64,000 nt of DNA from Acinetobacter colistiniresistens (GTDB lineage: Bacteria; Pseudomonadota; Gammaproteobacteria; Pseudomonadales; Moraxellaceae). The DNA is taken from assembly GCF_024582815.1 (NCBI RefSeq), contig NZ_CP102099.1:3472001-3536000 (forward strand), given 5' to 3'. Below the pieces are notes generated by a model. The model saw nothing but the letters and a program-made list of their open reading frames with translations, ran no database searches and had not been told where the DNA came from. Position numbers and translations under genes: made by a program. This document shows positions 23,568 to 48,291 of the stretch, piece after piece. How positions within the stretch are numbered: position 1 is the first letter of the stretch; each line of letters begins with the position of its first letter.

Positions 23568-23614
23568 GTAATTTTCCATAGATAATGAAGTATATAGTTA
23601 TACCTTTTAAGTCT
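23568..23614 (-). promoter_or_regulatory. Porin promoter/operator element, shared with the MFS gene and similar to the CatM site
   Basis: Contains GTAATTTTCCATA (23568-23580), then after 9 bases GTAT-N6-ATAC (23590-23603), continuing CTTTTAAGT. The same arrangement with the same spacing occurs upstream of the MFS gene at 48253-48291. The stretch ATACCTTTTAAGT (23600-23612) is also identical to the CatM-type site at 24613-24625. LysR-type control of the porin is inferred; the element reads toward the porin on the minus strand. Confidence 0.65.
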
Positions 23615-23689
23615 GGTTTTAAGCCTTTCACAAACATTAAAAAGCGATCATGATGACCGCTGATAATTAAACTGAGTACTTCGAGTGGC

Positions 23690-24607
23690 TTAGTCACCCT
23701 CTAGTTGGATCGGAATACCTTCTTCTTCAAATACTTGCTTAACGCATTCTAAAATCTGCGGTAGATACGGACTCTGATCCATATTACGTACCGCCAATGA
23801 AATTGGGGTATAGGCCTCCAAATCCAGAATGGGGATATACACCAGATTCTTCATACCAATGTCACTGGCACTTTCTGGAATCAAGCAAATCCCCTCACCT
23901 GATGACACCAAACCAAGCGCCATATGAATTTCCCGTACCTCGACCATGTCTTTAGGCACCAGCCCCAAATCGGTGAAAATCGATTGAATCAAAGTTGAAA
24001 AATTTGGTTTTTGGGTCGCGGGATAAGAAAAAATAGGTTCATCAATGATCTGGGATAGATAAATCCCCTGATCGATAAAGCGGGTTAAATGATGGTTTTT
24101 ATGAATGGCCAATTTAAGTTTTTCTTTGCGCAATAAAATCCGTTTAATCGCAGGATCACTAATTCTTAGGCGTCCAAAGCCTAAATCGATTTTACCCAGC
24201 TTTAACGCTTCGATCTGATCTTTGGTACCATGCTCAACCAACTCCACCTGAATATCAGGATGATTTTGACGGAATAGATAAATCACTTGGGGTAACAGCG
24301 CATAAAGCAATGAGCTGACATAGCCAATACGTACAATCTTATTCACTGTGCTAATGCGTTTTGCCATTGAAGCCGCTTGAGCGGTATGGGTTAAAATCTG
24401 CACCGCATGCTGATAAAAAAACTGCCCCGCTTCTGTGGTTTTCACAGGCCGAGAACCACGTTCAAATAACAGGATACCGAGTTCCTCTTCCAGCTTTTGG
24501 ATCTGACGGCTTAATGGTGGTTGTGCAATACATAACTTTTCTGCCGCTTTGGTAATGCTCTGTTCCTCGACTACCGTCACGAAATAACGAAGATGTCTTA
24601 ATTCCAT
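23690..24607 (-). CDS. catM: LysR-type regulator of catechol degradation
   Basis: Muconate-responsive LysR activator of the cat genes, 305 residues. The N-terminus [20 protein letters not shown], the HTH block [20 protein letters not shown] and the effector domain with [15 protein letters not shown] match the CatM/BenM family of Acinetobacter. It is divergent from catB with a 104-base gap that holds a perfect ATAC-N7-GTAT site six bases before its own ATG, which fits autoregulation. CatM versus BenM is decided by position beside catB. No ben genes are in the window. Confidence 0.93.
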
Positions 24608-24612
24608 TTAAT

Positions 24613-24627
24613 ATACCTTTTAAGTAT
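24613..24627 (+). promoter_or_regulatory. CatM/BenM-type operator (ATAC-N7-GTAT)
   Basis: ATACCTTTTAAGTAT matches the established CatM/BenM site 1 consensus ATAC-N7-GTAT exactly. It overlaps the catM leader and lies 85 bases upstream of catB, the expected place for activation of catB and repression of catM. A further half-site ATAC occurs at 24634-24637. Confidence 0.85.
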
Positions 24628-24711
24628 CTAAAAATACCAAATTCAGCCTAGTTCTAAATATTACATTAATTTAGGGTATGTAAATAGCTCAGGATCAAAG
24701 AAATACCCAAG

Positions 24712-25821
24712 ATGTATAAATCCATAGAAACCCTACTTGTCGAGATTCCAACCATCCGCCCACATAAGATGGCGGTTGCAACTATGCAAACCCAAACCTT
24801 GGTTCTCATTAAAGTGACAACAGAGGATGGTTTAATTGGTTGGGGTGAAGCAACGACCATTGGCGGTTTGGGTTATGGCGATGAAAGTCCTGAAAGTGTC
24901 AAAACCAATATCGAGCATTACTTTTCGCCATTGTTAAAAAGCTTGGGCAGTTTTAATGTGGCTCAGACCCTACAGGCCATTCAACACAGCATCAATGGGA
25001 ACCGTTTTGCCAAATGTGCCATTCAAACAGCGCTACTGGATATTCAGGCGCAACGTTTAGGTTTACCGCTCAGTGAAGTATTAGGTGGGCGCCTACGTGA
25101 TAGTGTCCCTGTACTTTGGGTTTTAGCCTCTGGCAATACTGAAAAGGACATTGCTGAAGCAGAAAAAATGATCGCGTTAAAACGCCACAATGTGTTCAAG
25201 CTCAAAATCGGTTCCCGCCCAGTTGAGCAGGATGTTGAACATGTACTGGCAATTAAACAAGCCTTAGGCACAGAGGTTTCGATTCGTGTCGATGTCAACC
25301 GTGCATGGTCTGAATTAAATGCGATTAAAGGGATTCAAATGCTTCAGGATGGTGGAGTCGATCTGATCGAGCAACCGTGTGCAATTCACAATATTGATGC
25401 CATGCAACGCCTGACGCGCAAGTTCGATATTGCCATTATGGCGGATGAATCTTTAACCGGTCCGCAAAGTGCGTATCAACTGGCAAAAAGCAATGCCGCC
25501 TCAGTGTTTGCAGTAAAAATTGCCCAATCAGGCGGTCTGATTGAAGCCTGTGAAGTCGGAAAAATTGCCAATCTGGCAGGGATCGATCTTTACGGTGGCA
25601 CCATGTTAGAAGGTCCAGTTGGCACCATCGCTTCCGCACATGCCTTCTCTACCTTTAGCAATTTAGCCGCTGGCACGGAACTGTTTGGTCCACTGTTACT
25701 CACGGAAGAAATTTTAAAAACACCGCTTCAATATGGCAATTTTGAACTCAAAATTCCAACTGGTCCGGGTCTCGGTATTGAACTGGATGAAGACAAAATC
25801 GACAAGCTGCGTCGTCAATAA
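24712..25821 (+). CDS. catB: Muconate cycloisomerase I
   Basis: Converts cis,cis-muconate to muconolactone in the catechol branch of the beta-ketoadipate pathway. It has 369 residues (ADP1 CatB about 370). The enolase-superfamily residues are visible: KLKIG (second Lys of the KxK motif), metal ligands in VDVNRAW, LIEQPC and MADESLTG, and the second-barrel-side Lys in FAVKIAQSGG. It starts the cat transcript, divergent from catM. catC follows after 14 bases. Confidence 0.96.
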   Translation: MYKSIETLLVEIPTIRPHKMAVATMQTQTLVLIKVTTEDGLIGWGEATTIGGLGYGDESPESVKTNIEHYFSPLLKSLGSFNVAQTLQAIQHSINGNRFAKCAIQTALLDIQAQRLGLPLSEVLGGRLRDSVPVLWVLASGNTEKDIAEAEKMIALKRHNVFKLKIGSRPVEQDVEHVLAIKQALGTEVSIRVDVNRAWSELNAIKGIQMLQDGGVDLIEQPCAIHNIDAMQRLTRKFDIAIMADESLTGPQSAYQLAKSNAASVFAVKIAQSGGLIEACEVGKIANLAGIDLYGGTMLEGPVGTIASAHAFSTFSNLAAGTELFGPLLLTEEILKTPLQYGNFELKIPTGPGLGIELDEDKIDKLRRQ

Positions 25822-46691: not shown

Positions 46692-46730
46692 TTCACTCCC
46701 TTGTGATGAATCAACCAAAGCAAGCACAAA

Positions 46731-46750
46731 GCCCATTACCATGAATGGGC
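46731..46750 (-). terminator. Short hairpin between MFS and AraC genes
   Basis: GCCCATT-ACCATG-AATGGGC: perfect 7-bp stem in the 86-base gap. On the minus strand it is followed by TTTGTGCTT, a poor T-tract, so it may attenuate rather than stop read-through from the transporter gene. Confidence 0.5.
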
Positions 46751-46777
46751 CTGTGACCTACTCAGTGCAGCATCAAA

Positions 46778-48121
46778 TCAAGATGCATGTTCCTGCTGCA
46801 TACTGTCACTAAATGCCTGACAGCCTTTTTTCAATAGGATAAAGGCCAACACACAAGAAATCGTGCCCACAATCGACAGTGACATGCCGACCATGAGCGG
46901 ATTTTCAAACACCTTATCGGTAATGAGTGCCACCAATGTGGTGCCAATCCCAACGGCAACCAGATTACTGATCAATAGGAATACCGCTGAGATTTGTGCG
47001 CGTAACTGGTTCGGCGCCAACATTTGCATGGCCGTGGTTGAAATCGGCATCGGGAATGAAGCAAAGAACATCGCAGGGACTAAAAACACCACTGATAGCC
47101 ATAGTTCATTGACCTGAGTAAAGATCATGATTGGTAAAATTAACCCAACAATCCCAATCACACCTGTAATCATCGGCGCATCTTTACGGCCTTTTTGAAT
47201 AAACCAGTCATTCAGCCAACCCGCACAAAATACGCCTAGAATATTGGCCACCAATAATACACTCCCGAGCATATAACCTGCTTCGGTCGGTGTTAAACCA
47301 AACTTACGCATATAGAATGCAGGTGACCAACTGATCAGGCAATACAACGCCATCGCGTAAAAAGTAAAACCTAAGTAATGACATTTGAAGGTGCGACCAT
47401 GCTTTTTAATAAACTTGAATGCATCCTTCATACTGGTTTTTTCTACTTGCCCCTGTGCATTGAGACGCTGACCTTTACGTTGTGGCTCTCTCACGGTGAG
47501 TAAAACCAATAGACCAATAAAGACACCCGGTAGACCCACAATAATAAAGGCCGCTTGCCATGCCTTAAGCGCACCAAAAACCGGAACCATGATGCTATCC
47601 ATATTTTTCAGTAAGCCAATCACATAGCCACCGACTAGAAAAGCGATCCCGCCGCCGACAAAAGAACCAATTGAATACACTGCAACAGCACGTCCAAGCT
47701 TATCCTTACTAAACATATCACTAAACATTGAATAGGCTGCTGGAGACAAAGCAGCCTCACCTACACCCACTCCCATACGACTGAAAAATAGCTGAACAAA
47801 GTTCTTACTCAGCCCACAAAATGCCGTTGCAATACTCCAAAAGACCACCCCGATGGCAATGATTTTTGGTCGTGAAAAACGGTCTGCCAGATAGGCCAAA
47901 GGTAAGCCCATAAAGGCATAAAACAGTGAAAAAGCCAAACCGTGTAATAAACTAAACTGCGTATCTGAAAGTCCGAGATCTGCTTTAATCGGCTCGATCA
48001 TCAGCGCCAGTATTTGCCGATCAATAAATGAAAAGATATAAGCCAGCATGCAGAGCAAAACCACATACCATGCATAGAGATTTGATTGAGCTTGTTTCGG
48101 CTCAGTTGAATGCTTATCCAT
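46778..48121 (-). CDS. MFS transporter, spinster-like, probable organic/aromatic acid transporter
   Basis: 447 residues from ATG 48121 (AGGAAG site 6 bases upstream); an in-frame extension to 48190 is not needed. About 12 membrane helices, with FSFIDRQILALMIEPIKADL in helix 1, the loop 2-3 motif ADRFSRPKIIAIG, helix 5 region GAGxxA-like FVGGGIAFLVGG and the C-terminal half containing ISTTAMQMLAPNQLRAQISA. Inner-membrane symporter. The promoter element upstream is shared with the OprD-type porin beside catM, which suggests the two form an uptake pair for the same compound. Confidence 0.86.
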   Translation of the reverse strand: MDKHSTEPKQAQSNLYAWYVVLLCMLAYIFSFIDRQILALMIEPIKADLGLSDTQFSLLHGLAFSLFYAFMGLPLAYLADRFSRPKIIAIGVVFWSIATAFCGLSKNFVQLFFSRMGVGVGEAALSPAAYSMFSDMFSKDKLGRAVAVYSIGSFVGGGIAFLVGGYVIGLLKNMDSIMVPVFGALKAWQAAFIIVGLPGVFIGLLVLLTVREPQRKGQRLNAQGQVEKTSMKDAFKFIKKHGRTFKCHYLGFTFYAMALYCLISWSPAFYMRKFGLTPTEAGYMLGSVLLVANILGVFCAGWLNDWFIQKGRKDAPMITGVIGIVGLILPIMIFTQVNELWLSVVFLVPAMFFASFPMPISTTAMQMLAPNQLRAQISAVFLLISNLVAVGIGTTLVALITDKVFENPLMVGMSLSIVGTISCVLAFILLKKGCQAFSDSMQQEHAS

Positions 48122-48252
48122 TGTTCTTCCTTGTCCATGCCATTTTTCTAATCCATTTGCCTCTTGAAAGCATAAAAGACCAGAACACATCCCCTTTTCT
48201 GGTCAATTTTTCAATAGGCCTTAATCCTCTCCTATAATTATTATTTTTACAT

Positions 48253-48291
48253 GTAATTTTCCATAATATTTAAGGTATATAGTCATACCTT
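48253..48291 (-). promoter_or_regulatory. MFS promoter/operator element, twin of the porin element
   Basis: GTAATTTTCCATA (48253-48265), 9 bases, then AAGGTAT-ATAGTC-ATACCTT (48272-48291), a perfect 7-6-7 palindrome. Same order and spacing as 23568-23614. On the minus strand the palindrome covers the -35 region and TATTAT (about 48263-48268) is a possible -10. Confidence 0.65.

Follow-up and report, generated by a model that had tools for sequence, protein, structure and literature searches.

Twin promoter elements in Acinetobacter colistiniresistens: a possible two-input promoter tying indole-acetate uptake to catabolism

Introduction

Two kinds of described regulatory system bear most closely on the promoters considered here. 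One comprises the benA and catB promoters of Acinetobacter under the regulators BenM and CatM; according to the accessible text of one study, CatM prefers ATAC-pyrimidine...purine-GTAT, and site 2 of catB is without a good 3' half (PMC6628147). The other comprises iac operons under the MarR-family protein IacR: in the accessible text of a further source, IacR of E. soli represses iac, the A. baumannii protein binds auxin, and IadR/MarR_73 of Variovorax is a MarR repressor that sits before catabolic genes until indole-acetate releases it (PMC9613470). The subject of this paper is a stretch of 64,000 nucleotides from the genome of Acinetobacter colistiniresistens (contig NZ_CP102099.1, positions 3,472,001 to 3,536,000; hereafter the window), in which twin elements lie upstream of an OprD-family porin gene and of an MFS transporter gene. 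We describe these elements, their rigid architecture, their conservation and targets within the genus, and their association with the type of IacR encoded, and propose at even chances that they would be copies of one conserved two-input promoter, with IacR at one dyad and an activator of the CatM/BenM kind at the other, tying indole-acetate uptake to catabolism.

The twin elements have the GTAT-N6-ATAC core in common with the benA and catB promoters and, with three benA promoters, also the 11 bases between ATAC and the -35 hexamer. Unlike BenM/CatM promoters, they have no conserved outer ATAC at site 1, show no site 3 that was noticed, and carry a second conserved dyad over the -35. With the IacR/MarR control of iac operons they share the gene cluster, the regulator family and a conserved block at -35; the accessible part of PMC9613470 treats the catabolic operon and does not mention porin, transporter or amidase promoters with a second dyad. 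The Variovorax system differs from that of the window in MarR group and gene set, and no paired upstream site is described in the same accessible text (PMC9613470). A full-text literature search, with most subscription papers outside its scope, retrieved no paper joining IacR and CatM, and none combining iacR or iacA with operator, promoter, palindrome and binding. A single paper, a Pseudomonas study, touched on most of the subjects of indole-acetate, iac genes, porin, transporter and penicillin acylase in connection with Acinetobacter. The regulation of iac in A. baumannii was reportedly studied by Shu et al. in 2015, whose work may map an IacR site.

Results

Twin elements in the window

The element has the form GGTATNACTATATAC-N9-TATGGAAAATTACAT and stands in the same orientation upstream of the porin gene (PF03573; 22135..23400, minus strand) and of the MFS gene (46778..48190, minus strand). 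On the minus strand the porin copy reads GGTATAACTATATAC-TTCATTATC-TATGGAAAATTACAT (23604-23566) and the MFS copy GGTATGACTATATAC-CTTAAATAT-TATGGAAAATTACAT (48289-48251), the nine bases between GGTATNACTATATAC and TATGGAAAATTACAT differing from one copy to the other. The match extends two bases past the limits set earlier (ATTACAT). When up to three mismatches were allowed, the pattern was found at exactly two sites in the 3.89 Mb genome, those of the porin and MFS genes, and the reversed control pattern at none. The original prediction of twin elements with identical order and spacing but unlike intervening bases, from which both genes are read on the minus strand, is borne out by the sequence and by this search. 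The full palindrome ARGTATRNNNNYATACYT is perfect in the genome at the same two sites only; its total of 11 matches per strand, against 13 for the control, indicates that the one-mismatch matches are background. Other GTAT-N6-ATAC places in the window (12296 and 60582) have no TATGGAAAATTAC adjoining.

It had also been proposed that the porin copy runs on into a sequence identical to the CatM-type site beside catB. This holds for the window, where ATACCTTTTAAGT is present both in the porin copy (23600-23612) and between catM and catB (24613-24625). It does not hold across species, since the ACTT part, which is the source of the identity, is not kept there, and essentially AARGTATA alone is.

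Two dyads at a fixed distance

Alignment of 40 unique cores resolves the element into two inverted repeats (IR1 and IR2): IR1 has the form ARGTATA-N4-TATACYT and IR2 the form ATGGAAAATTMCAT (ATGGAA-WW-TTMCAT). When the distance between ATAC and TGGAA was left free from 0 to 30 bases, it was exactly 11 in 146/146 matches, which represent 49 distinct sequences, overlapping loci being counted repeatedly. IR1, an even-centred symmetric dyad of 18 bases, is situated at about -55, and its centre lies 24 bases, or about 2.3 turns, from that of IR2. The centre of IR2 was AA in 39, TT in 12 and TA in 4 of 55 distinct elements, the arms having been set in part by the pattern used for searching. The TGGAAA within IR2 is read as a weak -35, because it stands 17-18 bases ahead of -10-like hexamers (AATAAT, TATAAT, TACAAT) in the examples read; IR2 would thus contain the presumed -35 and overlap the presumed core promoter.

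In the porin promoter, all features being on the minus strand, IR1 (AGGTATAACTATATACTT, 23588..23605) is conserved in orthologues and is followed by IR2 (ATGGAAAATTACAT, 23566..23579) with a -35-like TGGAAA at 23578-23573 and, 17 bases past it, a probable -10, AATAAT (23550..23555), which is similar in porin orthologues. The MFS promoter, likewise on the minus strand, has IR1 as AGGTATGACTATATACCT (48273..48290), the same IR2 sequence ATGGAAAATTACAT (48251..48264), a -35-like TGGAAA at 48263-48258 and a probable -10, TAATTAT (48234..48240), 17-18 bases further on, with TATAAT or TACAAT in some MFS orthologues. A 22-base direct repeat (TAT-N7-TAC twice), considered by eye as an AraC site, was dropped when the two blocks turned out to be distinct dyads.

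Conservation and targets in the genus

The survey covered 149 Acinetobacter genomes (genomes are numbered G and loci L). The strict element, defined as the GGTATNACTATATAC-N9-TATGGAAAATTACAT pattern at up to three mismatches, was found in 29 of them and its reversed form in 0; the relaxed pattern, at up to one mismatch, was found in 46, and its reversed control in 3. Comparison of the upstream regions of porin and MFS orthologues, where absence would have contradicted the original prediction, found the element conserved beside them. In 31 annotated loci it precedes the porin orthologue, the MFS orthologue or, in 7 loci, neither; at all 7 it precedes a third gene, as read from the open reading frames of L003 and L031 and from the amidase coordinates. 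This third target encodes a penicillin-amidase family protein (PF01804) with a lipoprotein-like start. The gene is present in 18/149 genomes at E<=1e-100, is absent from the window's own genome, and has the relaxed element directly before it, by comparison of coordinates, in 17 of the 18, the exception being G073. Behind the element, the amidase gene carries a transposase-like insertion in G046 (L273) and is split into two frames in G085 (L095), and in G147 a lone copy (L098:10194) stands where relatives carry the amidase gene, which was not found there at E<=1e-100.

Eighty named MFS loci, 40 from Acinetobacter, whose genomes overlap with the 149 surveyed, and 40 from Pseudomonas, were scanned upstream of the MFS gene with a weight matrix at a score above 10. 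The element was found at 38 of the 40 Acinetobacter loci, the others being a contig-edge locus (L219) and a second MFS copy (L229), and at 0/40 Pseudomonas loci. When one 21-kb locus was base-shuffled 200 times, the highest score reached was 3.5. There is some circularity in the top scores of the scan, because the 40 unique cores used for training included the window's copies; diverged calcoaceticus-type copies, which lie outside the training set, score about 20-31 bits.

Association with IacR

Four regulators were compared across the genomes: IacR, CatM and two AraC proteins. An IacR orthologue of at least 70% identity is encoded in 50/149 genomes, and the relaxed element occurs in 45 of these 50, compared with 1 of the 99 others (Fisher p 3e-31, uncorrected for ancestry). 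The single exception without IacR, G136, has two isolated matches that are taken for chance, and the five IacR genomes without the relaxed element (G019, G046, G069, G075, G126) have decayed copies. The element tracks the iac (indole-acetate) cluster and IacR first, and catechol second. The claim of a dedicated regulon is therefore strongly supported by conservation beside the orthologues as far as it joins outer- and inner-membrane uptake; its catechol part is to be modified, since the thing tracked is the iac cluster with IacR, and catechol degradation lies downstream.

IR2 as a candidate IacR operator

At the -35 of the iacH promoter the window carries CTTGACAATTACAT (42871..42884, minus strand), which has AATTMCAT in common with IR2, in the same register to the -35 (there TTGACA) and with the same A/C alternative; over both strands of the window AATTMCAT occurs ten times, including the two elements and iacH. 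Of 46 fetched regions, with some genomes represented twice, 40 have an exact CTTGACAATTMCAT in the iacH promoter; one base differs in L168, L172, L173, L180 and L181, and no iacH promoter was found in L174.

The clusters of G034, G016, G014 and G139 have iac genes of 61-92% identity, a porin of 51-57% and a MarR protein only 37-39% like IacR (tblastn). Their fetched stretches contain neither IR2 nor TTGACAATTMCAT, and IR1 is missing before iacH, the porin gene and, in G034, the MFS gene. The sequence TTGACAWNTCAAWYAAA occurs exactly twice per cluster, at the -35 before iacH and before the porin gene (8/8 places, none elsewhere in the fetched stretches); it is not present in the window, and the 40 named Acinetobacter MFS loci, 815,260 bases in all, have it once. 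Because TTGACAWNTCAAWYAAA replaces the IR2 block in the divergent-MarR clusters, iac and porin promoters appear to have a common -35 block in both kinds of cluster, which differs with the type of MarR. The recurrence of the right arm of IR2 at the iac -35, together with this change of operator, leads us to infer that IR2 is the IacR operator.

A TTGGTGCA-like motif also lies upstream in several promoters of the divergent-MarR clusters (L292-L295, L272, L289-L291). In the window (42822-42850) and in most fetched iacH promoters, the iacH leader holds a short conserved reading frame of four codons, ATG-GAA-AAG-TGA, which ends directly before the start codon of iacH. The sequence ATGGAAAAGTGAAT before iacH was not used as a second IacR site, as it is explicable as ribosome-binding sequence plus this leader, and a GTAT-N6-ATAC before iacH (42884-42897) is retained in few near-identical regions only and so is probably due to chance.

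IR1 as a candidate CatM/BenM-like site

All 40 unique cores of IR1 have R at position 0 and Y at position 15 around GTAT-N6-ATAC inner half-sites, and the GTAT half of site 1 is intact in 39/40. The benA promoters of G121 and G036 have ATAC-N7-GTAT-N6-ATAC-N11-TTGAAC, and that of G095 (L298) has GGTAT-N6-ATAC-N11-TGGAAT, with TGGAA in the place of the -35 as in the twin elements. At catB, GTAT-N6-ATAC was found in 11 of 12 usable distinct promoters, all but L073, several given loci having no CatM match or usable stretch. The canonical ATAC-N7-GTAT arrangement (site 1, T-N11-A, near -65) was rejected for the element, its outer ATAC being unconserved in the 40 cores. IR1 is thus not a canonical CatM/BenM operator and has the inner geometry only.

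The window's genome has no benA match at E<=1e-100, and CatM (23690..24607, minus strand; above the NCBIfam CatM cut-off) is its sole CatM/BenM-type match at E<=1e-90, which makes CatM the candidate for IR1 there. The adjoining ATAC-N7-GTAT-N6-ATAC (24613..24637, plus strand) is, by its likeness to PcatB as given in the accessible text of PMC6628147, a putative CatM-type operator of catB. Among the genomes with IacR, the relaxed element occurs in 43/43 that encode CatM of at least 72% identity and in 2/7 of those that do not (p 1e-5, uncorrected for ancestry).

Genes of the island

The MFS gene heads a run of minus-strand genes. It is followed by genes for an AraC-family protein (45690..46742), AndR-like but under the cut-off of that family, for an octopine/nopaline-dehydrogenase-domain protein (44487..45593), probably cotranscribed with the MFS gene, and for a 3-hydroxyacyl-CoA dehydrogenase-type protein above the NF006125 cut-off (43496..44485). 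Since many homologues of the MFS protein align from about residue 24-35 onward only, its translation may start near 48121 and not at 48190. The MarR-family regulator gene (42932..43438, plus strand) is assigned as iacR from its position beside iacH and from its closest solved chain, 7l1i, named in the accessible text of PMC11630574 as the template for the A. baumannii MarR. The operon 35404..42822 (minus strand) encodes an amidase, an acyl-CoA dehydrogenase-like protein, a SnoaL protein, Rieske alpha and beta subunits, an SDR protein, a ferredoxin reductase and a flavin reductase, which we take from gene order and family to be iacHAB-CDEFG. A second AraC gene lies at 34357-35271; copper amine oxidase genes adjoin it in the iac regions of G085 (L095:7674-9998) and G072 (L101:13228-15537), where the window has genes for a GMC oxidoreductase and an aldehyde dehydrogenase.

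Discussion

Indole-acetate is converted via catechol to muconate. On the reading proposed here, IacR at IR2 would block the weak -35 TGGAAA when indole-acetate is lacking, and binding of indole-acetate would cause the repressor to leave IR2. A LysR-type activator of the CatM/BenM kind would bind IR1 near -55 as a tetramer, in the RGTAT-N6-ATACY-N11-(-35) geometry of benA, and muconate formed from indole-acetate via catechol would then let CatM at IR1 recruit polymerase to the weak promoter, boosting uptake. Feeding the pathway would fall to the porin, the MFS transporter and, in genomes that have it, the amidase, which may release indole-acetate. The identity of both bound proteins, their ligands and the AND-like logic are read from sequence patterns; a CatM-like activator is our best guess for IR1. 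The control by CatM or BenM foreseen in the original prediction is plausible as regards the geometry found at three benA promoters and the GTAT-N6-ATAC of catB, and is weakened by the unconserved outer ATAC and by two genomes that keep the element without a close CatM.

Several observations weigh against this reading. The exact GTAT-N6-ATAC was not found within 1500 bases upstream in 27/30 benA loci, of which 17 have a diverged version and 10 no likeness, and positions -10 to -7 relative to IR1, where CatM/BenM would need ATAC, carry 0.42, 0.09, 0.13 and 0.09 bits. The element is retained in G138 and G140, and IR2 in G046, with CatM relatives of 57-60% only, none of them reaching 72%; conversely, G034, G016 and G014, all with divergent MarR, encode CatM of 72-77%, yet their porin promoters are without IR1. 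In G034 and G016 a perfect IR1-like palindrome, AAGTATAAAGCTATACCT, stands without IR2 about 270 bases upstream of a gene for an AraC-like protein at the distal end of the cluster (L288:11763, L289:14660). The iacH promoter has one good IR2 arm only, the other being degenerate, and IR1 is absent there. That the divergent MarR proteins regulate their own clusters is assumed, and because IacR, CatM and the elements share one syntenic island in several genomes, the co-occurrence is partly shared inheritance.

These points lend most to an explanation in which IacR occupies IR2 and IR1 is the site of some other dimeric activator, unrelated to CatM/BenM, the likeness being convergence on a short AT-rich palindrome. 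The even-centred symmetry of IR1, its unconserved outer half-site, its retention in G138 and G140 and the lone palindromes of G034 and G016 all suit such a protein, which we nonetheless consider unlikely, since three benA promoters show the same R-GTAT/ATAC-Y core, N6 and N11, and catB the same core and N6. If IacR instead bound both dyads as two dimers and were the sole specific regulator, the rigid spacing, the joint tracking of IacR by IR1 and IR2, and the lack of both from the examined porin and MFS promoters of the four divergent-MarR clusters would be accounted for; the explanation is improbable, as iacH promoters, where IacR would chiefly be expected to act, do not conserve IR1, and the two dyads differ in sequence, with centres some 2.3 turns apart.

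A CatM/BenM-type regulator acting alone, with the second block merely a -35 and its flanks, would fit the benA-like geometry and the distribution of the element relative to CatM among the IacR genomes. We hold it to be very improbable, because the second block is conserved for 7 bases beyond the -35 and partly common with iacH, and because the -35 operator differs with the type of MarR. Hardly credible, finally, is regulation by the AraC protein encoded after the MFS gene, which the original prediction had considered for both elements and which finds no support. The protein does adjoin the MFS gene by coordinates in the 28/149 genomes that have it, but at E<=1e-50 it is missing from 9/29 genomes with the strict element, which rules it out as a necessary regulator, and from 21/45 with the relaxed one. 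The second AraC protein is absent in 6/29 strict-element genomes, and G119 (A. celticus) has elements and neither AraC protein at the thresholds used.

The accessible parts of the literature examined do not say how indole-acetate enters Acinetobacter, although the hormone has to be taken up before it can be removed. The element points to three candidate genes for uptake or release, those of the porin, the MFS transporter and the amidase, and predicts two regulators. Tentatively, and at somewhat less than even chances, iac-bearing Acinetobacter may have a conserved promoter module in which auxin would be sensed by a MarR protein at the -35 and muconate by a LysR protein a fixed distance upstream. 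Outer- and inner-membrane uptake of plant auxin, and in some species an amidase, would then answer to both the substrate and its downstream product, and within the genus the -35 operator would have been switched at iac and porin promoters together with the MarR regulator. The divergent-MarR clusters resemble a naturally occurring example of joint change in a regulator and its operators.

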